This document shows positions 5,786 through 33,193 of a stretch of 64,000 nucleotides of DNA, one piece after another. The translations under genes were made by a program, and so were the position numbers. The number at the start of each line of letters is the position of its first letter. Positions within the stretch are counted from its first letter, which is position 1. The notes beneath the pieces are model-generated. The model worked only from the letters and a program-made list of their open reading frames with translations. It was not told the origin of the DNA and did no database searches. Origin of the DNA: Aurantiacibacter gangjinensis (GTDB lineage: Bacteria; Pseudomonadota; Alphaproteobacteria; Sphingomonadales; Sphingomonadaceae); contig NZ_CP018097.1 of assembly GCF_001886695.1 (NCBI RefSeq), forward strand, positions 1,383,001 to 1,447,000, in the 5' to 3' direction.

Positions 5786-6537
5786 CCTATTGTGTCGGCC
5801 TCATGCTCGAAAAAGGCCTTGTCCTGATGAGCGATACGCGCACCAATTCCGGTGTCGATAACATCTCCGTGTTCCGCAAGATGTTCACGTGGAGCGTACC
5901 GGGCGAACGGATCATCACGCTGGTGACGGCGGGCAATCTTGCTACGACGCAGGCCGTGATCAGCCGGCTGGAAGAACGCACCAAGGCACCGTCGGAACGC
6001 AGCAATTCGCTGATGGAATTGCCTACGATGTTCCAGGTGGCCAGCGAAACGGGCAAGCTTCTGCGCGAGACTATCCGCGAAACGCAAGAGAGCAACGGCG
6101 TGCGCGGCAAGGGGCGTTTCACCGCATCCATCATCCTCGCAGGCCAGATCCGCGGCATGGAACCGCGCCTCTTCATGGTCTATCCCGAAGGCAATTTCAT
6201 CGAAGCGAGCTACGACACGCCCTTCTTCCAGATCGGCGAGACGAAGTATGGCCGCCCCATCCTGATCCGCGGCTACGACCGCGACATGAGCTTCGAGGAC
6301 GCGGTGAAATTGCTGATGGTCAGCTTCGATTCCACGCTCAAGGCGAACCTTTCGGTCGGCCTGCCGCTAGACCTGATGGTGATCGACCGTGACGGTTTCG
6401 CCCCTGCGCATGAACGCCGCATCGAAGCGACAGACCCCTATTTCAGTGCGATCAGCGATGGCTGGGGGCGGGAATTGCGCAGCGCGTTCCACTCGCTGCC
6501 CAGCTACACTTTCGAATCCGAAGACGCCGCCGAATAG
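5782..6537 (+). CDS. Anbu: proteasome-like N-terminal-nucleophile peptidase
   Basis: This is a 251-aa predicted cytosolic peptidase of the Ntn-hydrolase fold related to HslV and 20S beta subunits. Removal of Met1 exposes Thr as the nucleophile (M|T-Y-C-V-G). Counted from that Thr, Asp17 (M-S-D-T-R-T) and Lys32 (F-R-K-M-F) occupy the positions of the proteasome catalytic residues. Length agrees with Anbu, which is longer than HslV. There is no propeptide and no ATPase partner such as HslU nearby. The ATG overlaps the stop of the transglutaminase gene. The association of Anbu with CP-ATP-grasp, alpha-E and transglutaminase genes is documented, but the physiological substrate is not. Confidence 0.9.
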   Translation: MTYCVGLMLEKGLVLMSDTRTNSGVDNISVFRKMFTWSVPGERIITLVTAGNLATTQAVISRLEERTKAPSERSNSLMELPTMFQVASETGKLLRETIRETQESNGVRGKGRFTASIILAGQIRGMEPRLFMVYPEGNFIEASYDTPFFQIGETKYGRPILIRGYDRDMSFEDAVKLLMVSFDSTLKANLSVGLPLDLMVIDRDGFAPAHERRIEATDPYFSAISDGWGRELRSAFHSLPSYTFESEDAAE

Positions 6538-6697
6538 ATTTCTGGGTCAAGGAACGGGGTTAACAGCTCCATTTCGGAGATAAATCCGCCCGTCCTTAAT
6601 ACGGCGTGGCGAGGCACCCTAGTAGCCTTACTTATAGGTGCAAATCCGTGGTAATACGGAATGTTTCTGATCGTGTTTCCTGCGCAAGATCAGTGCC

Positions 6698-7396
6698 ATG
6701 GAACAGCGTATCTCGATCCACATCGTCGGCGGCAACAGCCGCTCCCGGGCAGAGCAATCCCGCCTAATCCTTTCCATGGGCCACCATGCGGAAGTGTATT
6801 CGGACCTTGTCGAGCTGATGGACCGCCCACCGCGCTCCGGCGTCATCATCGCATCGAACGATGTGCTGGATGACGGGATCGAGGATCTGCTGGAAGAGCT
6901 GGCCGATGCGGGCATCTGGGTGCCGCTGGTGGCCGCCAAGGTCGAACCAACAGTCGAGGAAGTGGTCGAAGCGATCCAGGCGGGCGCGCTCGATTACCTG
7001 CAATTGCCGCTGAGTGAAGACGAGTTGCGGCGCATGATTGCCCACGTCCACACCGATGCCGGTCGCCACGCCGAGGCACGCCGCCGGCTGATCGATGCGC
7101 GCAAACGCATCGGCGCATTATCGAAGCGCGAGCGCGAAGTGCTCGACTGGCTGAGCGAGGGCTGCTCCAACAAGGCCATCGCCCGCAATCTGGAAATCAG
7201 CCCGCGCACGGTGGAAATCCACCGCGCCAACATGATGGACAAGCTGGGCGCAGGCCACGCGGCAGAGGCCGTGCGGCTGCGGCTGGAAGCCGGTTATGAG
7301 GAGGCGACCCGCGAAGGCCGGGTAAAAAAGCCTGAAGCGTCCGGCGCGGACGCCATGCTGATCCAGGAGTTGATAATCCCTAAGCTCGCCGGTTAA
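6698..7396 (+). CDS. FixJ/LuxR-type regulator with degenerate receiver domain
   Basis: This is a 232-aa two-domain protein. Residues 1-120 align by eye with a FixJ-like receiver, but the phosphorylation machinery is gone: the acidic pair is G11-G12, the phospho-Asp position is Ser53, the switch Thr is Ala and the conserved Lys is Leu103. Residues about 139-190 form an intact LuxR/GerE helix-turn-helix (L-S-K-R-E-R-E-V-L-D-W-L ... S-P-R-T-V-E-I-H-R-A-N). It should bind DNA without a conventional phosphorelay. It stands alone, 160 nt after the Anbu gene, with no histidine kinase nearby. Targets are unknown, and regulation of the Anbu operon is only a possibility. Confidence 0.88.
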   Translation: MEQRISIHIVGGNSRSRAEQSRLILSMGHHAEVYSDLVELMDRPPRSGVIIASNDVLDDGIEDLLEELADAGIWVPLVAAKVEPTVEEVVEAIQAGALDYLQLPLSEDELRRMIAHVHTDAGRHAEARRRLIDARKRIGALSKREREVLDWLSEGCSNKAIARNLEISPRTVEIHRANMMDKLGAGHAAEAVRLRLEAGYEEATREGRVKKPEASGADAMLIQELIIPKLAG

Positions 7397-7420
7397 CGGC
7401 GAAGGGACGACGGCCTTGGC

Positions 7421-8161
7421 TCAGCGGCAATAGGATGTGCCGTCGATCACGCCTTCGAGGTGAAAGTGATCCTCGTGCGCGGCATTGTATTCCGGCCCCA
7501 GCACGGTTCCGAAGCGGCGGCAGGCGCTGCGTTGCACCGTCCGCAGGAACTGGCGTTCCCGCGCGTTGCCGTTCCAGCCATCGGTCACCGTGATGCGCGT
7601 GCCGTCCTCCAGCACGAAGCCTGCGACATCGATGGCATTGGCGCTGGCATGGCCCGATCGGCGATTGCTGCCTGCCACATTGCGGCAGGCATAGCTGCCC
7701 ATCGTCTCGATACTGGCGACGCCCTGTCCGAAGATCTGCTGCGCTGCGCGGTCCACGCCGAAACGCGCCCACGCCGCGAACGCCGCGCTGACGGGGCAGG
7801 TAACCGGCCCCAGATTGGCAACGCCCAGCATACCATTGTCACTGCTGAGCGCATGCATCTGCACGGTACCCAGCGTGCTGCAGCCGCTGCCGAAATCCTG
7901 ATTGGCCACTGCATCGAAAGTCACGCCCGCTTGGTCCAGCTGCGCCATGCATTGCCCACCGGCAGTCGCAAGAGCAGGGCGGGGCGCTGGTAAGCGCTGC
8001 GCTGTCGGGCGAGCCACCGGGCGGGAGGTGGCGCGCGCCGGAATATCGGCGCTTGCACTGGCGGAATAGCGCGGGCCGGAAGCCTGCGGCACCAGCTGGC
8101 AGCCTGTCAGCGCCAGCGAAAAGAGCGGCGCACCCAGCGAGATCAGGAGCATACGGTTCAT
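7421..8161 (-). CDS. extensin-like family lipoprotein (peptidase M15-like fold)
   Basis: This is a 246-aa protein. The ATG at 8161 gives a signal with lipobox A-L-T-G-C (Cys21), then an Ala/Pro/Arg-rich linker, then an extensin-like C-terminal domain. Within it are H-A-S-A-N-A-I-D-V-A-G-F and E-D-H-F-H-L-E, a His...Asp...H-x-H set reminiscent of zinc D-Ala-D-Ala peptidases. Conserved cysteines are spread through the domain. It is probably an outer-membrane-anchored, peptidoglycan-related protein, but activity is not proven for the family. It is convergent with the FixJ-like gene (24-nt gap) and divergent from serC. Start codons further upstream would bury the lipobox and were rejected. Confidence 0.85.
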   Translation of the reverse strand: MNRMLLISLGAPLFSLALTGCQLVPQASGPRYSASASADIPARATSRPVARPTAQRLPAPRPALATAGGQCMAQLDQAGVTFDAVANQDFGSGCSTLGTVQMHALSSDNGMLGVANLGPVTCPVSAAFAAWARFGVDRAAQQIFGQGVASIETMGSYACRNVAGSNRRSGHASANAIDVAGFVLEDGTRITVTDGWNGNARERQFLRTVQRSACRRFGTVLGPEYNAAHEDHFHLEGVIDGTSYCR

Positions 8162-8294
8162 GGTTACTCCCCATGCCCCACATGTGGTTAACCCCTGCCG
8201 CAAGGTCATGGTTAACACGCGCGAAAGAGATTTGGAACCGGCACGGCGCTGGCCCGTCAATCCGGTAACGAAAGAAACCGCAATTTCCTTTGAC

Positions 8295-25336: not shown

Positions 25337-26602
25337 GTGGACCATTTCCAGCTGAGGAACGGCGAGCTCTACGCCGAGGATGTGCCGCTGGCGCGGATTG
25401 CTGACGAGGTCGGCACGCCGGTCTATGTCTATTCGCGCGCCACGTTCGAGCGGCATGCGCGCGTATTCGTAGAAGCGCTTTCGGGATTGCCGAAGAAGCC
25501 GCATATCGCTTTTGCCGTGAAGGCCAATCCGAACCTCGCCGTGCTCAGCCTGCTGAGTCGCGAGGGGCTGGGCGCCGATGTCGTCTCCGGCGGGGAAATG
25601 GCGCGCGCGCTGGCGGCCGGGATGCCTGCGACGGACATCGTATTTTCCGGGGTCGGCAAGACACACCGCGAACTGGCCGACGCGCTCGATGCCGGGATCG
25701 GACAATTCAACATCGAAAGCGGCGAGGAAGGCCGCGAACTGGCGGAGATCGCCGCGGCGCGCGGCGTGGTTGCCGATTGCGCCTTGCGGGTGAATCCAGA
25801 TGTCGACGCAGGCACGCATGACAAGATTTCTACCGGCAAGGCGGACAACAAATTCGGCGTGCCCATCGGCCACGCGCCGCAGCTGTTCGCCAAACTCTCG
25901 CAATTGCCGGGGCTGAACCTGCGCGGTCTCGCCGTGCATATCGGTAGCCAATTATCAGAGCTGACTCCGCTCGAAACCGCTTTCACCAAGCTGGGCGACA
26001 TGCTCGCAACGCTACGCGAGGCGGGGCATGCCATTACCCATATGGACCTCGGCGGCGGGCTGGGCGTGCCGTACCGAGCAGGCGAGCAACTGCCCTCTCC
26101 ATTCGAATATGGCGAGATGGTGAAGCGGGTGACCGCAGGCTGGGATGTAACGCTGATGTTCGAGCCGGGCCGCGTGATCGCGGGCAATGCCGGCGTGCTG
26201 CTGACCCGTGTTATCCGGGTGAAGCGGGGCCTGAAGCATCCTTTCGTCATCGTCGATGCGGCGATGAACGACCTTGCTAGGCCAGCTCTTTACGGGGCGT
26301 ATCATGACTTTGCCGCCGTCGCGCCCTCAGGTGAGCGCATGCTCGCCAATATCGTGGGACCGATCTGCGAGACGGGGGATACTTTCGCTACCGACCGCGA
26401 AACCGATGCTCTGGTAGCGGGCGACCTCGCCATCTTCCGCACCGCGGGCGCCTACGGTGCGACCATGGCCAGCAGCTACAATTCGCGCGGCTTCGTGGCC
26501 GAGGTTATGGTCGACGGATCGCAATTCGCCACCGTCGCCGACCGCATCCCGCCCGGCGACATCGCCGATGCCGAGCGGGTGCCGGACTTCCTGAAAGCCT
26601 GA
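25337..26602 (+). CDS. lysA: diaminopimelate decarboxylase
   Basis: This is a 421-aa PLP enzyme making L-lysine from meso-diaminopimelate. The fold type III hallmarks are the PLP lysine in A-F-A-V-K-A-N-P-N, H-I-G-S-Q-L, the Gly loop D-L-G-G-G-L-G-V, F-E-P-G-R and the C-terminal G-A-Y-G-A-T-M-A-S-S-Y-N. It starts at GTG 25337, the base after the preceding stop, so it is translationally coupled in the argH-lptM-like-lysA operon. Confidence 0.97.
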   Translation: MDHFQLRNGELYAEDVPLARIADEVGTPVYVYSRATFERHARVFVEALSGLPKKPHIAFAVKANPNLAVLSLLSREGLGADVVSGGEMARALAAGMPATDIVFSGVGKTHRELADALDAGIGQFNIESGEEGRELAEIAAARGVVADCALRVNPDVDAGTHDKISTGKADNKFGVPIGHAPQLFAKLSQLPGLNLRGLAVHIGSQLSELTPLETAFTKLGDMLATLREAGHAITHMDLGGGLGVPYRAGEQLPSPFEYGEMVKRVTAGWDVTLMFEPGRVIAGNAGVLLTRVIRVKRGLKHPFVIVDAAMNDLARPALYGAYHDFAAVAPSGERMLANIVGPICETGDTFATDRETDALVAGDLAIFRTAGAYGATMASSYNSRGFVAEVMVDGSQFATVADRIPPGDIADAERVPDFLKA

Positions 26603-27390
26603 TGCGCTCGCTGCCGCTTTTCCATCGGATCGCCGGGCAGCCGGTGATCGTTCTGGGCGAAGGCGAAATGGCGGAACCGAAGCGCCGCCTGATCGAACGG
26701 GCGGGCGGCCGCGTCGTCTCGGTTATGCAGGCCGGGATCGACGAAGGCGCGCGCCTCGCTTTCGTCGCGCATGACGATGAGAAAATGTGCGAAGGCGATG
26801 CCATCCGCCTGCGCTGCGCTGGCCTGCTGGTGAATGTCGTTGACAGGCCGGACCTCTGCGATTTCACGACGCCCAGCCTGCTGGAGCGCGACCCGGTACT
26901 GATCGCTGTCAGCACGAGCGGCGCTTCTGCCGGGCTGGCCAAGCAATTGCGCCTTCGGCTGGAGAAGCTCTTGCCCGCCAATCTCGGCGAGCTTGCAGAG
27001 AAGCTTTCCGCGATGCGCGGAGCGATCAAGGCGCGTTTTCCCAGCATGCCGGTACGCCGACGCGCGCTGGACGATGCGCTCGGCGAGGGCGGTTACCTCG
27101 ATGTCCTCGCTGAGGGCAGCGCCGATCGGGTCCAGATATGGCTTGAGAATGCCGAGACGCCGGGTGCCGAGGCGGTGCACCGCTTTACGATTAGCAGCGA
27201 TGATCCCGAAGACCTCACGCTAAGGCAGGCCCGTCTGCTGGGCAGCGCCGATGCCGTCATCGCCGATCCGGCCATTCCCGCCACAATCCTCGACCGCGCA
27301 CGTGCCGACGCCGAGCGCCTGATCCTGCCGCATGATGGCGATTTGCCAAGCGGTCTGGTCATCATTCTCGAACGGGGTGAGTTCCCCTGA
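26602..27390 (+). CDS. precorrin-2 dehydrogenase / siroheme synthase N-terminal type
   Basis: This 262-aa protein resembles the N-terminal half of CysG (Met8p-like), which oxidises precorrin-2 and chelates iron on the way to siroheme. It shows the Rossmann-like opening P-V-I-V-L-G-E-G-E-M-A, the segment A-F-V-A-H-D-D, V-N-V-V-D-R-P-D-L-C-D-F and the signature A-V-S-T-S-G-A-S-A-G-L-A-K. The uroporphyrinogen methyltransferase domain of CysG is absent. The ATG shares one base with the lysA stop (TGATG). No sulfite reductase gene is in view. Confidence 0.88.
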   Translation: MRSLPLFHRIAGQPVIVLGEGEMAEPKRRLIERAGGRVVSVMQAGIDEGARLAFVAHDDEKMCEGDAIRLRCAGLLVNVVDRPDLCDFTTPSLLERDPVLIAVSTSGASAGLAKQLRLRLEKLLPANLGELAEKLSAMRGAIKARFPSMPVRRRALDDALGEGGYLDVLAEGSADRVQIWLENAETPGAEAVHRFTISSDDPEDLTLRQARLLGSADAVIADPAIPATILDRARADAERLILPHDGDLPSGLVIILERGEFP

Positions 27391-27443
27391 TTACAAGCAT
27401 TTAACTGTAGCGAGGCCGTACTCGCAGGCAGTCTTCATCGCAC

Positions 27444-27473
27444 GGGCCGACACGGGGTCGGGCCTGTCAGGAG
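27444..27473 (+). promoter_or_regulatory. leader hairpin and strong RBS of the 51-aa peptide gene
   Basis: A stem GGGCCGAC/GTCGG-g-CCT (27444-27465, one bulge, 5-nt loop) sits directly before AGGAG (27469-27473), 7 nt from the ATG at 27481. The strong ribosome site supports the small gene being real. The hairpin could modulate its translation. No clear promoter was identified in the 90-nt gap. Confidence 0.45.
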
Positions 27474-27480
27474 ACTGTCA

Positions 27481-27636
27481 ATGAAACTACCCAAGATCGA
27501 TCTTTCGAACCTGCCGGATCTCGGCACGCTGACCGGCATGTTCGGCTCGCCCACCGGCACGCCCGGCCATGACGACACGATCATCGTGATTGCCACCATC
27601 GTCTATGAGAGTGGCTCGCCCACTCCGGGCCTTTAG
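27481..27636 (+). CDS. 51-aa peptide, candidate modified-peptide precursor
   Basis: This is a short gene with a strong ribosome site, encoding 51 residues. The first half (M-K-L-P-K-I-D-L-S-N-L-P-D-L ... M-F-G-S) is amphipathic with Leu/Asp spacing, like a recognition leader. After a Gly/Pro/Thr spacer comes H-D-D and a beta-branched run (T-I-I-V-I-A-T-I-V-Y-E), then S-G-S-P-T-P-G-L. No signal peptide or Cys is present. Its stop is 16 nt before the HEAT-like gene and a cupin-like gene follows. I do not know the family. A leader-core precursor acted on by the downstream enzyme is an inference. Confidence 0.6.
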   Translation: MKLPKIDLSNLPDLGTLTGMFGSPTGTPGHDDTIIVIATIVYESGSPTPGL

Positions 27637-27652
27637 GGGTCGGTCCAAAGCG

Positions 27653-28621
27653 ATGCAGGTCCATCCCGACATCGCCGCGTTGCGGAGCGATCGCGCTCCG
27701 CAACGCGAGGCCCAGACGCTGATCCTCGCCGCCCGCAATGCCTGGGCGGCCGAGGAAGGAGCGTCGGAGTTGCTGGCCGAGCTTGAGGCTTATGGCGAGG
27801 GCGCGCCGCTGGAAGCGTGCCCTGTTCTGGAGGCGGTATTCACAGGGCAGGGCGAGGCAGAGCGGCTGATGCATGCGCTGGTGAAGCACTATTGCAAGGC
27901 TATCGCCGAAAATCCGCTTGGCCATCCACCCTTCCGCATCGGCTTCAATGGGGTGTCGACATCGATCCTGCTCGGGCGTTCCGGCCGGGCGCAAATGATG
28001 CTGCAGGCGCGCGAGCCGGGCACCTTCGACAACCCCAGCTATATCCTGCCCGATGCGACGCGCCTCGATGCCGTGCTCGCAGGAGAAGCGCAGGGTCGTA
28101 TCGTTCGCCGCGTCGTTCGCGGCGAGACTGCCTGCCGTTTCGACGAAGAAGTGGTCGCCTTGCGAGCGGGAGGGCGCTATGCGTTCGACCTATCGAGCGA
28201 AAGCCTGATGATTGACGTCGTGGACACCCGCTTTGTTGTGCTGCGGCTGATGCGCACGGCGGAGAACCCTGCCCCAGCACGCGAATATTGCGCAGAGACG
28301 GGCGCGTTCCTGCATCAATGTGCCGGAAACATCGCGACCAGCAGGCTGGAAGCTCTCATCGCCACGCTCGGAAGAATGGGCCGCGAAGATGCCGCGCCCG
28401 CCATCGCTGCCATCGCGCTCGACGAAGGCGATAGCTCGCTGCGCTGGCAGGCTGTGCGCGAGGCGCTGTCGCTCGACAGTAAAACCGGTTTCGCCGCGCT
28501 TGCCGAAATCGCCGCACGCGCTGGCGACCCCTTGGCCGCCAATGCCGGCGCCCTGCGCGCGCAACTTTGTGAAACCTATCCGCAATTTGCCCAATGGGAG
28601 GCCCGACAATGCCCCGCATAA
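27653..28621 (+). CDS. uncharacterised protein with C-terminal HEAT-like repeats
   Basis: This is a 322-aa, probably cytosolic protein of no family I can name. The first 120 residues are mainly helical (Q-T-L-I-L-A-A-R-N-A-W). The middle is beta-rich, with V-S-T-S-I-L-L-G-R-S-G-R-A-Q and L-M-I-D-V-V-D-T-R-F-V-V-L-R-L. The last 85 residues look like two or three HEAT/Armadillo units (R-L-E-A-L-I-A-T-L-G-R-M-G, then D-S-S-L-R-W-Q-A-V-R-E-A-L). It starts 16 nt after the small peptide gene and overlaps the next gene by 13 nt. Peptide binding or partner docking is a guess from HEAT biology. Confidence 0.7.
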   Translation: MQVHPDIAALRSDRAPQREAQTLILAARNAWAAEEGASELLAELEAYGEGAPLEACPVLEAVFTGQGEAERLMHALVKHYCKAIAENPLGHPPFRIGFNGVSTSILLGRSGRAQMMLQAREPGTFDNPSYILPDATRLDAVLAGEAQGRIVRRVVRGETACRFDEEVVALRAGGRYAFDLSSESLMIDVVDTRFVVLRLMRTAENPAPAREYCAETGAFLHQCAGNIATSRLEALIATLGRMGREDAAPAIAAIALDEGDSSLRWQAVREALSLDSKTGFAALAEIAARAGDPLAANAGALRAQLCETYPQFAQWEARQCPA

Positions 28622-29508
28622 TCGACTGTCATGACGACGCCAGCTGCGCGCTCGGGGATGTGCTGGATGCGCTATCCGCCGAAGGCTTCCGACCGTTCGA
28701 GGAAGAAAGCCTGCAACATGCGGCGGGCTGGCTGCGTCGGCTGAACAACAATCGCACCTTCCTCGCCGACATGATGCTGGAAGAATTGAAGCAGGGCGTG
28801 AAAGCGGCGGAGGATGCGAGCAGCTATGGCCCGCAAGTCATGATGCTGTGCCCGCTGGGGCAGGAGTTTTTCATGCGCGCCAATTTCTGGCCCGGTCGGC
28901 AGGATCACATGTTCCGCGCCAGCGGGAAGGGCACTTTCAGCTATGAGCTTCCGCACGATCACAATTTCGATTTCCTGACCGTCGGCTATTTCGGGCCGGG
29001 TTATGAAAGTGATTACTACGAATATGACTACGAGGCGGTGGCGGGCGCGATCGGTGAGAAAGCGGGTTTGCGTTTCGTAGAGCGCAGCACTCTCTCGCCG
29101 GGCAAGCTGATGCATTACCGCGCGCATCGCGATGTGCATTCGCAGTTGCCGCCCGAAAGCCTCTCGATTTCGATCAACATCATGCATGCAGGCGGCGCGC
29201 AGGGGTGGCTGGATCAATACTGCTTCGATGTCGAAAAGGACGAGATATCGAGCGTCGTCAGCCCCGGTGGCAGCGAGGTGTTCCTGCGCGTGGCTGTCGG
29301 CCTTGAGCATGTCGAAGCACTGGACCTCGCAGAAAACTTCGCTGCAAATCACAAGTCGGACAGGATGCGGCTGGTGGCGCTGGAAGCGCAGGCGGGCCTG
29401 CTGAACGTTGCCGGACGCGACGATCTGTGGCGAAACGCAGAAAATTCGGGCAGCAGGCTGATTGCGCTGGAAGCGTCGCGTCGGCGGCGCGAGTTGAGCC
29501 TAGCCTAA
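28609..29508 (+). CDS. cupin-like putative iron dioxygenase
   Basis: This is a 299-aa protein. The central part carries a cysteine-dioxygenase-like cupin pattern: His116 and His118 in P-H-D-H-N-F-D, tyrosines Y126/Y137/Y141, then H169, H173 and H177 in M-H-Y-R-A-H-R-D-V-H-S, followed by the strand S-L-S-I-S-I-N-I. Three His near one metal site would fit an Fe(II) enzyme. Flanking helical parts are unassigned. It begins 13 nt inside the preceding gene, so the two are coupled and probably work together. Oxidation of the upstream peptide is inference; a free small-molecule substrate is equally open. Confidence 0.65.
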   Translation: MPRIIDCHDDASCALGDVLDALSAEGFRPFEEESLQHAAGWLRRLNNNRTFLADMMLEELKQGVKAAEDASSYGPQVMMLCPLGQEFFMRANFWPGRQDHMFRASGKGTFSYELPHDHNFDFLTVGYFGPGYESDYYEYDYEAVAGAIGEKAGLRFVERSTLSPGKLMHYRAHRDVHSQLPPESLSISINIMHAGGAQGWLDQYCFDVEKDEISSVVSPGGSEVFLRVAVGLEHVEALDLAENFAANHKSDRMRLVALEAQAGLLNVAGRDDLWRNAENSGSRLIALEASRRRRELSLA

Positions 29509-29987: not shown

Positions 29988-31189
29988 GACCGCATTCGCG
30001 TGACGACATCCTGCTGCAAATTCTTCCAGAACAGCGGGATGTCGACGAGGTGGTAATTGTTACCGGGAAAACGCTGATTGCCCATTTCCGGCGGATCGCC
30101 GATCAACAACAGGCCCTGTTCGTTGCAGCGCGCAGGAACCGCGCCCGGCAATAGCTCGCCGGTCGAGAAATCCTCTTCCGGCACCAGCGTGCCGAGGTTC
30201 TCGCTCATTGGAGCTTCGCCGTTCAGCGTGCCAGTGATCGGGTTGACGCACAGGATCGGGCTATCGCCTCGTGGCTGGCCGTTGAAGCCCGGCGTGCTGG
30301 AATAGCGTCGGAAAAACAGGCCCGGATCGGCAGGCTCTGCAAAACTGGCCCAGCTGACGATGCACCCAGACTGGCTTGCGCTGGCACAGGCCGGCAGGCG
30401 CAATTCGGGCAGGTCGTTTTCCAGCGAGATCGGCCAGCCGATGGGGTAGGCCATCGCAATGCGGCCCTCGAGCGCGGGGTCGCCGCCACGCTCCTGCAGC
30501 AGGCGTGTGATGTGATAGGCGCCCTGGCTGTGCCCGGCGAGCACGATAGGCCTGTCTGCCGGGACCGAATCAAGGAAGAAATCGAAGGCCTGTTCGACAT
30601 CGCGATAGGCCGCGTCGATGGCGCTAGTGGCTTCGGGCGCATCGGTCAGAAAAGCGCCGAACGTCGCCTGCCGGTAGCGTGGCACCCAGATCTCGCTCGC
30701 CTGGTTGAAAGCGCTGGCGAGCCCGCGCACCATGATGCGCGCGCGGTTCTGCGATTCCGCTTCGTCTATGGTTGCATTCCATGCGCTACGGTTGAAGTAG
30801 CTGGTGGGGTGGACGAAAAAGACGGCGAAAGACGGCACTTCTTCGCGCGCTTCGCTTACGTCAGGGGCGCTCGCGTCCGACTGCACTACTTCTCCATTGG
30901 GCGTTGCCGACGCGGTGGGCTCCTCAGGCGGGGCAGCAGGGTTCGTTGCATCGCCTTCAGCGAATTGCGGCTCCCAGCGCGCCGGATCGTTGGCCGCGCC
31001 CTTGCCGGGGCGGCTGAACCACATATCCGGATCCTGGTAGGCGTTCAGCTCCAGCGGGTCCTGCTCGACGAATTCGGTGTCGGGCACCATCGCCACTTCG
31101 GTCAGCTCGTCACCCCACACGCGCAAGGCGAACAGGCCGGCCGCCACGATGACGATGAGAACGGTAATCGTATAAAGGAACTTACGCAG
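29969..31189 (-). CDS. DUF3089 alpha/beta-hydrolase-like membrane-anchored protein (CTG start)
   Basis: This is a 406-aa protein with an N-terminal membrane anchor and an alpha/beta-hydrolase domain: F-F-V-H-P-T-S-Y, then the elbow L-A-G-H-S-Q-G-A-Y-H. No ATG, GTG or TTG lies between the upstream in-frame TGA and GTG 31147, which sits in the middle of the anchor. The natural-looking start is CTG 31189 (x-R-K-F-L-Y-T-I-T-V-L-I-V-I-V), with GGGAG 9 nt upstream and an 8-nt overlap with the AI-2E gene stop (CTGCGTAA). I use CTG. If GTG 31147 is right, the protein is 392 aa with a shortened anchor. The substrate is unknown. Confidence 0.82.
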   Translation of the reverse strand: MRKFLYTITVLIVIVAAGLFALRVWGDELTEVAMVPDTEFVEQDPLELNAYQDPDMWFSRPGKGAANDPARWEPQFAEGDATNPAAPPEEPTASATPNGEVVQSDASAPDVSEAREEVPSFAVFFVHPTSYFNRSAWNATIDEAESQNRARIMVRGLASAFNQASEIWVPRYRQATFGAFLTDAPEATSAIDAAYRDVEQAFDFFLDSVPADRPIVLAGHSQGAYHITRLLQERGGDPALEGRIAMAYPIGWPISLENDLPELRLPACASASQSGCIVSWASFAEPADPGLFFRRYSSTPGFNGQPRGDSPILCVNPITGTLNGEAPMSENLGTLVPEEDFSTGELLPGAVPARCNEQGLLLIGDPPEMGNQRFPGNNYHLVDIPLFWKNLQQDVVTRMRSWQQTS

Positions 31190-32333
31190 GGTCGGTCTCC
31201 CGAGAGGTGTCGTTCAAAGAATGGGCGGACGGTGCATTGGCTGCCGCCGCATCGATTTCCGCTGCATCTTCCTCGTCCTTCTCCTTCGCCCGCTGTTCCA
31301 GGATCACCTTGATCATGGCGAGAAGCGGATCGGCGAGGAACAGGCCGAGTATGCCAAACAATATGCCCATGATCAGCTGCATCGCCAACACCAGCGCGGG
31401 TGCGAGATCGACCGTCTTCTTGGCAATCATCGGGATGACTAAATAGCCATCGATGTTCTGGACGAGGAAATAAACGAAGATGGTATAGATGCCCATCTGC
31501 GCGCCGCCGGAAAAGCCCACCAGCACCATCAGAACGCCGGAAATCACAGCACCGATATTGGGCACGAAGGCAAGCAAGCCGGTAAGTATGGCGAGCAGCG
31601 CGGCCATCGGAATGGTATCGCCGGTCACCAGTCCGTATCCGATCAGCATGACATAGGTGAATATGCCTTCCACGACCATGCCGACGATACGGCCGAACAT
31701 CAGGCGGCGCATGGTGTAGCCCATGCGGCTGGCCGTATCGTAAAACCCGTCGCGGCGGCCCTTTGGCAGCATCCAGGCCACACCGCGCTCGTACAGGCGC
31801 GGTTCGGCGACCACATAAATCCCGATGATGACGATCAGGGCCAGCGTGGCGAGCCCGCCGAGCAGGCCGCCGAGCGCGCGCGTGATGGAACCCATGCCGC
31901 TGACGGCCTGGCTGGCCATCGACTGCACCGAATCGATGCTGATCTGGAAGCCCTGCTCACGCAGCCACGCGAAGAGCTGGCGCGTCTGGTTCTCCACGAT
32001 CGACGGGAATTCCGCAGCTTGCTGCGAAATCTGCGAGCCGGCAAAAATGGAAAGCCATCCGATAAAGCCGATACCTGCCGCGATCACGATGCCGATCCGC
32101 CAGCCGCGCCCTATGGGCAACACGCGGCTTAGCAGACGCGAGCCGCCATCGATGATCGAGGCGAAGACCATCGCGCCGAAAATCACCAGCAGGCTGTGCG
32201 AGATATAGACCGCGAGCATCACCAAGCCGACGATTACCGTCCAGACCAGCGCCTTCCACGCCTCGAAGCGCAGCTCCGGCGTGGAGATGCGCGTCGGGCT
32301 TGCACCCATGTTCTCGAGGTCCGGATGGCTCAC
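31182..32333 (-). CDS. AI-2E family transporter / permease
   Basis: This is a 383-aa polytopic inner-membrane protein with about eight helices, a large soluble stretch between helices 3 and 4 (about 90-150), and the conserved P-N-I-G-A-V-I-S-G near residue 257. The C-terminus is a charged Glu/Lys then Ala-rich cytoplasmic tail. The family (YdiK/TqsA) contains autoinducer-2 exporters and Na+/H+ antiporters, so the cargo is not predictable. It starts at GTG 32333, overlapping the lepB stop (GTGA). Confidence 0.9.
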   Translation of the reverse strand: MSHPDLENMGASPTRISTPELRFEAWKALVWTVIVGLVMLAVYISHSLLVIFGAMVFASIIDGGSRLLSRVLPIGRGWRIGIVIAAGIGFIGWLSIFAGSQISQQAAEFPSIVENQTRQLFAWLREQGFQISIDSVQSMASQAVSGMGSITRALGGLLGGLATLALIVIIGIYVVAEPRLYERGVAWMLPKGRRDGFYDTASRMGYTMRRLMFGRIVGMVVEGIFTYVMLIGYGLVTGDTIPMAALLAILTGLLAFVPNIGAVISGVLMVLVGFSGGAQMGIYTIFVYFLVQNIDGYLVIPMIAKKTVDLAPALVLAMQLIMGILFGILGLFLADPLLAMIKVILEQRAKEKDEEDAAEIDAAAANAPSAHSLNDTSRETDPA

Positions 32334-33193
32334 TGCTCGGTCTCTCCCCTGATCTCCGGACGCAGGCTGCGCCATGCGCGGTCTCCGCGCAAGGCCTGCC
32401 ACCATGTCAGCGGGTTCAAGCTGGCCTGTCCGTCGACGGAGAAGGTAATGAATTCGGCGCGCCCACCGACATCTTCGAGCGGCACCGGTCCGCCAAGCCC
32501 ATCGGAAGACAGAGGCGCGCGGCTGTCTGCCGAATGGTCGCGATTGTCACCCATCAGGAAGACATGACCATCGGGCACGGTCACTTCTGCCATCTGGTCG
32601 AGCCGCGTTTTTTCATGGTCGATAATGAGATAGCTTGCCCCGTTCGGTAACGTTTCGCGGAAAGTGGGCGGTTCATACACGTCGCTGCCGTCTTCCAGCG
32701 TCACGCGATAGGGTTCGAACACGGCGAGGCATTCGCGAAAGCCGCACAGATTGTCGTTCTCGGCGGGCAAGCGCACCGGCGGCTCGAACTCGCGCGGCAC
32801 GGGCTCGCCGTTGAGGATGATGCGCCCATCCACCAGCGCGATGGTATCGCCGGGCAGGGCGACGACGCGCTTGATGTAATCTTCCGCGCGGTTCGGCGGC
32901 ACCACGATAACGATGTCGCCATATTCGGGCGTGCCGGGCGCAACGCGCCAATCGTCGCGCGGCAGCACATGGAAGCTGGCCGACACCCAGCTCCAGCCAT
33001 AGGGATATTTGCTCACGATCAGGCGGTCGCCCACCATCATGTTCGGCGCCATGCTGATGGAAGGGATGTAGAACGGCTTGGCGATGAAGGTGTGAAAGGC
33101 AAGCACGGCCAGCAGCATGAGCGCAAGTCCGCGTGCCTCGGCCCACCAGTTGATGTTCGTGTCGGCCTTTTCCCCGGCCTTGTCTTGGCTCAT
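32330..33193 (-). CDS. lepB: signal peptidase I
   Basis: This is a 287-aa inner-membrane serine protease that removes Sec/Tat signal peptides. An N-terminal transmembrane helix (about 22-38) precedes the catalytic Ser47 in I-P-S-I-S-M-A-P. The general base is Lys108 in [11 protein letters not shown], and [11 protein letters not shown] is box E. There is one membrane span, as in many alphaproteobacteria. The start ATG overlaps the acpS stop (ATGA) and its stop overlaps the AI-2E start. Confidence 0.96.

Follow-up and report, generated by a model that had tools for sequence, protein, structure and literature searches.

A candidate peptide-modification cassette of a small precursor-like peptide and two cupin-like, HEAT-capped proteins in Aurantiacibacter gangjinensis and its relatives

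Organization of the cassette

We analyzed a 64,000-nucleotide stretch of the genome of Aurantiacibacter gangjinensis (assembly GCF_001886695.1, contig NZ_CP018097.1, positions 1,383,001 to 1,447,000; hereafter the window) and focused on a three-gene cassette on its + strand, in which a 51-aa open reading frame (ORF) for a putative precursor peptide is followed by genes for two larger proteins, B and C (Table 1). The cassette lies between a lysA/cysG-like pair and ruvX on the opposite strand. An earlier interpretation made from the letters of the DNA (the sequence-only reading) had described a peptide gene with a ribosome site and two coupled genes, and this layout was confirmed: the ORFs were as described, AGGAG precedes the ATG, and the B and C genes overlap by 13 nt, an overlap that recurs in many relatives. 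Inspection by eye of the region upstream of the peptide gene revealed GGAG in 18 of 20 same-genus stretches and GAGGA in the other two.

Table 1. Features of the cassette, numbered from the first letter of the window
Feature	Position	Strand	Description or basis
Inner hairpin of the 5' leader	27444-27465	+	Fold z-score; covariation in 21 chosen relatives
Ribosome binding site AGGAG	27469-27473	+	Sequence; 7 nt before the peptide ATG
Precursor-like peptide gene	27481-27636	+	51 aa: leader 1-23, linker 24-28, Val/Ile-rich core 29-44, tail 45-51
Protein B gene	27653-28621	+	322 aa: N-terminal helices, cupin-like barrel without conserved metal ligands, C-terminal HEAT helices
Protein C gene	28609-29508	+	299 aa: cupin with invariant H116, H118, H177 and Q179; C-terminal HEAT-like helices

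A small peptide under purifying selection

A homologous ORF of 51-62 aa, with B behind it, was present at the same position in 20/20 same-genus loci, which were taken for 20 of the 30 C match rows (the window's own included). In a second set of 76 loci from named genomes, which overlaps the first (13 of the 20 same-genus loci share an identical C with one of its members), the peptide adjoined C in 73 cases, 70 of which were found with a peptide hidden Markov model (HMM) and three were added by hand (Ferrimonas L092, with five tandem peptides, and Dyella L094 and L095). The search for the peptide beside both partners, which had been proposed as a check, was therefore successful. The three loci in which no peptide was found were L064 and L091, whose contigs end inside C, and L093, which had no candidate; for L083, L084, L087 and L089 the HMM E value was only 0.01-0.94 and the assignment rests on position.

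Two blocks of the peptide were kept in the same-genus loci while the linker and tail drifted. The ratio of nonsynonymous to synonymous substitution rates (dN/dS; Nei-Gojobori method, 20 loci) was 0.17 for the leader, 0.21 for the core, 0.61 for the linker and 0.54 for the tail. It was 0.28 for the entire ORF, and changes in linker length among relatives preserved the reading frame. This purifying selection indicates that the peptide is translated, and the dN/dS of its gene led us to reject a chance ORF; the lack of translation that would have spoken against the sequence-only reading was thus not observed. The leader/spacer/core plan proposed in that reading held with regard to the leader-like and core-like halves and the relaxed linker, but the terminal S-P-T-P-G-L, which it had counted as a feature of the peptide, belongs to the poorly conserved tail. 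A precursor gene that is translated, as judged by selection, is co-located with genes for the putative modifying enzymes B and C. Only one match to the peptide was found in the whole genome of its host at E ≤ 10, and nothing was found for it in Pfam, NCBIfam, PHROGs and PADLOC.

The composition of the core region was also distinctive. When the most hydrophobic stretch of 13 residues was taken from each of 88 peptides, the fraction V+I/(V+I+L) was 0.84, compared with 0.56 in the control, and none of 2000 samples reached 0.84; the controls were 4075 such stretches from longest ORFs, some of which are probably spurious. The 18 peptides of far loci (described below; L146-L148 were left out) alone gave 0.83, which was reached by 0/5000 samples, and this preference for Val and Ile over Leu does not directly depend on the by-eye choice of far precursors. 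The window peptide has no Cys, and Cys occurred after residue 20 in 8 of the 70 HMM-found peptides and after residue 15 in 6 of the 18 far peptides. Because most peptides have no Cys past the leader, the thiol chemistry of the fold relatives of C does not appear to be the general reaction on the peptide; a small thiol would still be conceivable as a substrate. A strict leader motif, P-x-L-x3-[VTA]-[GA]-x2-G-[ST], was present in 60/70 HMM-found peptides, 8/21 far candidates and 17/7419 other small ORFs; it was derived from these same sequences, and two of the far candidates were picked partly by it.

Protein C resembles thiol dioxygenases in fold

An AlphaFold2 (AF2) model of C was generated with an alignment of 56 homologues, i.e. 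the window protein and 55 of 73 readable ones, with near-duplicates and split or cut genes excluded. It contained N-terminal helices, a beta barrel and C-terminal HEAT-like helices, with a predicted local distance difference test score (pLDDT) of 92.2. The top solved fold identified by Foldseek was 3-mercaptopropionate dioxygenase (4tlf; E = 4.6e-8; template modeling score 0.60 by target and 0.42 by query length). Further matches included mercaptosuccinate dioxygenase and, lower down, PCO4, CDO (cysteine dioxygenase) and ADO among other cupins and JmjC folds; we take the top matches to be 3-His enzymes. H116, H118, H177 and Q179 were invariant in 56/56 aligned sequences, in 73/73 of the 76-locus set and in 18/18 distant rows (these sets overlap, and one of the 18 rows repeats Dyella L095). 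The sequence-only reading had likened C to cysteine-dioxygenase cupins on the basis of H-x-H and three further His. The fold and three of these His were retained in our analysis, but H173 occurred in 60/73 homologues and H169 in only 39/73; E138 also varied in distant rows.

Sequence families gave little for C: there was no Pfam family and one chance-level NCBIfam row for the window protein, no Pfam cupin family across the 56 members (the best was HEAT_2 in five, 5e-4), and nothing significant in the PDB by sequence. Membership in the thiol dioxygenase (CDO) superfamily is thus indicated by the cupin fold of the model and its Foldseek matches, but not by a curated sequence family. The HxD/E...H arrangement is the facial triad of 2-oxoglutarate/JmjC hydroxylases, whereas C has an invariant H-x-H...H. 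Judging from residue conservation and the predicted structure, C is probably a 3-His iron oxygenase. The window C clusters with Aurantiacibacter/Erythrobacter rows (support 99/94).

Protein B is a cupin-like protein without conserved ligands

Protein B had been described as HEAT-like, which was correct in part. The HEAT_2 match of the window B was below Pfam's cut-off (E = 0.008), but HEAT_2 was found in 31/54 B members at E ≤ 0.1 (best 2e-10); the family libraries otherwise gave chance-level rows only, and the PDB searched by sequence gave alphaRep (designed HEAT-like) chains. The AF2 model of B (pLDDT 95.4), based on 54 homologues (the window protein and 53 of 71, with the same exclusions as for C), showed helices, a barrel and HEAT helices in the same order as in C, and its Foldseek matches were cupins, the first being mercaptosuccinate dioxygenase (8vni; E = 8e-7). 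HEAT repeats are therefore present in B, as seen from both the family matches and the C-terminal helices of the model, but the middle of the protein is a cupin-like barrel, and for this reason we rejected B as a pure HEAT protein. It has no conserved His, the best position being occupied in 34/54.

The HEAT parts of B and C were related by hhalign (E = 4e-6, compared with 0.11-0.71 in eight reversed or column-shuffled full-length controls), and whole B against whole C gave E = 9.8e-5. B and C are apparently related cupin-plus-HEAT proteins. Because B combines a cupin and HEAT helices with no conserved ligands, and C likewise ends in HEAT-like helices, we read them as a catalytic/pseudo-enzyme pair, which may form a heterodimer. 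The two genes are closely linked: B adjoined C in 74/76 loci, the exceptions being two cut contigs, and by HMM B stood directly before C in 19/21 far loci, the exceptions being L118, with a weak B match (E = 0.19), and L152, with an unmatched ORF in place of B. In the metagenome-derived loci L027, L044 and L049, B is split over two reading frames, and C is split in L072, which may reflect either sequencing error or decay.

A hairpin in the 5' leader

The sequence-only reading had also noted a leader hairpin before the peptide gene, and this was supported by the fold of the window and by covariation in 21 chosen relatives. Folding of 27395-27500 gave z = -2.5, with 3/200 shuffles as good, and in this fold an outer arm (27427-27436) is base-paired to the region of the ribosome site (27470-27479). 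In many relatives a hairpin lies 15-27 nt ahead of the start; among 70 upstream regions, the best stems were matched by at most 5/100 shuffles in only 17. Seven of these regions (L040, L083, L084, L086, L087, L089 and L090) were dropped from further comparison. For a 7-bp stem in 21 of the other 63 sequences, 40 double-change cells were counted versus 14.6 in shuffles and 3-15 when the stem was slid, whereas the number of pairs with a double change was not unusual in these sequences (6 versus 5.0, reached by 127/500 shuffles). The 21 sequences were hand-picked, mainly as close to the window and having a hairpin already seen, so the covariation result leans towards structure; a MAFFT alignment of all 63 upstream regions gave no consensus pairs. 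Pairing between the arm and the ribosome site was examined by a permutation test, in which the mean score over 63 loci was 14.46 versus 12.39 (standard deviation 0.29; reached by 0/300), and that over a close set of 20 was 17.25 versus 13.72 (reached by 0/500). These sequence comparisons support a hairpin able to cover the ribosome site of the peptide, and the element at 27427-27480 looks like a translational control of the precursor.

Distribution and genomic context

A search of 61 genomes detected C in 28, namely the window's own and 27 of 36 others of the genus, but in none of 24 from other families. In wider samples, it occurred in 97/296 genomes of the order and in 15/398 of the phylum, two of the latter outside the window's family; the orders holding these two genomes had C in 10/250 and 5/247 genomes. 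Hosts outside Alphaproteobacteria were Ferrimonas, Dyella, Alteromonas and Vibrio, with C located on one Alteromonas plasmid and one Vibrio plasmid, and the remaining far genomes, known to be of the same phylum, are presumably Gammaproteobacteria. C had no match in phage records, and none was confirmed in viral contigs.

In Erythrobacteraceae, the cassette has a recurring chromosomal place. Among the 76 loci, C was followed by a RuvX-like ORF in at least 31 and by a DUF3089-like ORF in at least 46, and the cassette was preceded by an argH-like ORF in at least 25, a lysA-like one in at least 18 and a cysG-like one in at least 19. Neighbor families were assigned by likeness to the genes of the window, and the counts are lower bounds because the longest-ORF filter often takes the wrong strand. 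In the window, a siroheme-synthase-like (CysG N-terminal) gene at 26602-27390 directly precedes the cassette, and similar ORFs stand before it in at least 19/76 loci. The closest exporter-like gene in the window is an AI-2E family permease on the opposite strand (31185-32405), with a signal peptidase beyond it.

Precursors and transporters in other lineages

In loci outside Alphaproteobacteria, different candidate precursors, mostly rich in Val and Ile, stand ahead of the B-C pair. We found candidates in 11 of 15 far loci (L117-L120 and L142-L152), in L092, L094 and L095, and, among divergent alphaproteobacterial loci, in L121, L122, L123, L125 and L126. The C proteins of far locus L141 and of L095 are identical. 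The far precursors were chosen by eye as small ORFs upstream of B with a ribosome-site match and a hydrophobic end; those of L147 and L148 were chosen partly by the look of the leader, and the start residue of the L095 peptide, as used, corresponds to no start codon in the DNA. Most candidates share a plan, with an N-terminal part, often containing P-x-L-x3-[VTAFI]-[GAS]-x2-G, followed by a Val/Ile-rich end.

Several loci contained more than one precursor. In Ferrimonas L092 there are five tandem copies, the first three with the same core and the fourth nearly so. Between copies 1 and 5, the leader keeps 19/27 residues (57/81 bases) and the core only 2/11 (21/36 bases from the same boundary). 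The pattern of a kept leader and a varying core that had been expected earlier is seen between these two copies, but not within the genus of the window. Two different candidates were seen in each of L117 and L142, the L142b candidate being the least sure of such pairs, with a GTG start and an overlap with the longest B reading frame. GG precedes the core in L092, L150, L084, L086, L087, L089 and L090. The L146 candidate (8002-8193) contains a twice-repeated FIFAA segment. Behind an unmatched ORF (5940-6626) that takes the place of B, this locus (5940-8193) also has another C-like gene (6623-7357; 7.6e-20).

The absence of an adjacent transporter, noted in the sequence-only reading, is true of the window but does not extend to the other lineages. 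Of 19 loci outside Alphaproteobacteria, 11 have transporter genes (ABC_tran, MacB/FtsX, HlyD, ABC-2 or AcrB families) in the neighborhood of the cassette: L092, L093, L094, L095 (as L141), L117, L120, L142, L143, L147, L151 and L152. In L093 this is HlyD only, and in L094 an ABC-2 match under Pfam's cut-off. A Yip1-domain gene was observed in L092 (9282-14992) and L150 (9309-12929); L092 also has HlyD/ABC/MacB genes and a His_kinase/LytTR pair, and L150 has similar-looking genes. The Yip1 and kinase neighbors might serve to sense the product or membrane stress.

Comparison with known systems

The family libraries searched held no described system of this make-up. Likewise, among the matches listed in full-text literature, judged by title and abstract start and with coverage lacking most subscription papers and bioRxiv, we found no ribosomally synthesized and post-translationally modified peptide (RiPP) system with a HEAT/cupin protein or a thiol dioxygenase. 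The earlier statement that no such system is known is supported by these searches, and we regard the novelty as provisional. C shares the cupin barrel and the HxH...His set with thiol dioxygenases (3-mercaptopropionate dioxygenase 4tlf/6xb9, 8vni, CDO 4ysf, PCO4 7chj and ADO 9dxb). It differs from them in its added N-terminal helices and C-terminal HEAT-like helices, in having no significant PDB sequence match or Pfam cupin family, and in being paired with a ligand-free partner and a peptide that in most cases has no Cys past the leader. Some of our candidate precursors resemble those of double-glycine-leader class II microcins and bacteriocins in having GG before a small hydrophobic core, and some lie near MacB/HlyD-type genes, whereas the window peptide has neither a GG site nor an exporter; to our knowledge, these systems include no counterpart of B or C. 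PbsQ of the biphenomycin-like pbs cluster is a JmjC-related cupin-fold hydroxylase that works on a RiPP precursor after a multinuclear non-heme iron-dependent oxidase (MNIO) and an arginase and before a B12-dependent radical S-adenosylmethionine enzyme (B12-rSAM) (PMC12257519). The proposed role of C, a cupin-fold oxygenase acting on a RiPP precursor, is similar, but no MNIO, arginase or B12-rSAM was present among the window neighbors scanned, and the ligand set of C looks 3-His.

A proposed mechanism and its alternatives

We consider it fairly probable that the locus is a new kind of RiPP-type cassette: B and C would form a heterodimer that binds the leader, and the hydrophobic core would be oxidized by C. 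This interpretation is based on the position of the peptide beside B and C, the purifying selection, the thiol-dioxygenase fold with its invariant residues and the ligand-free cupin-like B, together with the tandem or multiple precursors, the FIFAA repeat, the core change in L092, the transporter genes and the cores favoring Val and Ile. In the mechanism that we infer, the small gene would encode a precursor with an amphipathic leader, a flexible linker and a short Val/Ile-rich core. B, with its HEAT helices, would hold the leader in a complex with C, and C would carry one non-heme iron in its 3-His site and oxidize the core with O2. The reaction would most likely be hydroxylation or other oxidation of an aliphatic residue, which is favored because most cores have no thiol. 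The leader may afterwards be removed by an unlinked protease, and versions outside Alphaproteobacteria may be exported by the neighboring pumps.

Several observations weigh against this interpretation. The product and its modification are so far predictions. In the window's genus, leader and core are conserved to almost the same degree, and hhalign of the barrels alone gave no significant sequence similarity between B and C (E = 0.15). No candidate precursor was found in 4 of the 15 far loci (L118, L143, L145 and L149), nor in L093 and L124, and the candidate cores of L147 and L148 have no Val/Ile run. Among the ten window neighbors scanned there was no cassette exporter or protease, the sole candidates being the AI-2E permease and the signal peptidase, and the transporter count given above covers chosen neighbors only, with no background rate. 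Besides, C is missing from 9 of the 36 other same-genus genomes and is represented in one more, G011, by a partial match with a stop; it is therefore not essential.

The similar conservation of the two blocks within the genus would also be expected if the peptide were a permanent small subunit, or an allosteric component, of a B:C oxygenase with a small-molecule substrate, e.g. a thiol, and if each block bound one partner. The single peptide copy in the genome, the recurring chromosomal place in Erythrobacteraceae and the fold that C shares with dioxygenases of small thiols agree with such a role. However, a stoichiometric subunit is ill-suited to five tandem peptide genes or two different candidate peptides per B-C pair, to core replacement between copies and to transporter genes outside Alphaproteobacteria, and we judge it unlikely, if still a serious competitor. 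Hydrophobic Val/Ile cores, the GG before the core in seven loci and the MacB, HlyD and ABC-2 genes near some loci could instead suggest an unmodified bacteriocin- or signal-like peptide held by B and C as chaperones or immunity proteins. The invariant His set and Q179 of C across very distant homologues point to catalysis, and the window cassette has no exporter, which makes this explanation quite improbable. Finally, a short ORF behind a structured leader might be spurious or a regulatory upstream ORF, with only B and C of importance; the dN/dS of the whole ORF, the frame-keeping changes in linker length and the conservation across genera leave very little room for this possibility.

Implications

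Our broader proposal, to which we give somewhat less than even weight, is that the oxidizing cassette represents a new RiPP class of Alpha- and Gammaproteobacteria, whose maturase pairs a 3-His cupin with a ligand-free cupin, both HEAT-capped, and oxidizes unactivated Val and Ile; in Erythrobacteraceae it would have become a chromosomal module passed on mainly by vertical descent, its ribosome site covered by a hairpin, which would suggest a function in physiology and not in warfare. If true, the pairing of a catalytic and a ligand-free cupin would be a new enzyme architecture in peptide natural-product biosynthesis, and C would exemplify an iron oxygenase with a thiol-dioxygenase fold whose peptide substrates for the most part have no thiol. 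With its precursor, its partner pair and its invariant histidines, the cassette is a three-gene system open to direct testing, and its recurring chromosomal form in Erythrobacteraceae raises the question of what physiological role a small modified peptide may have in these organisms.

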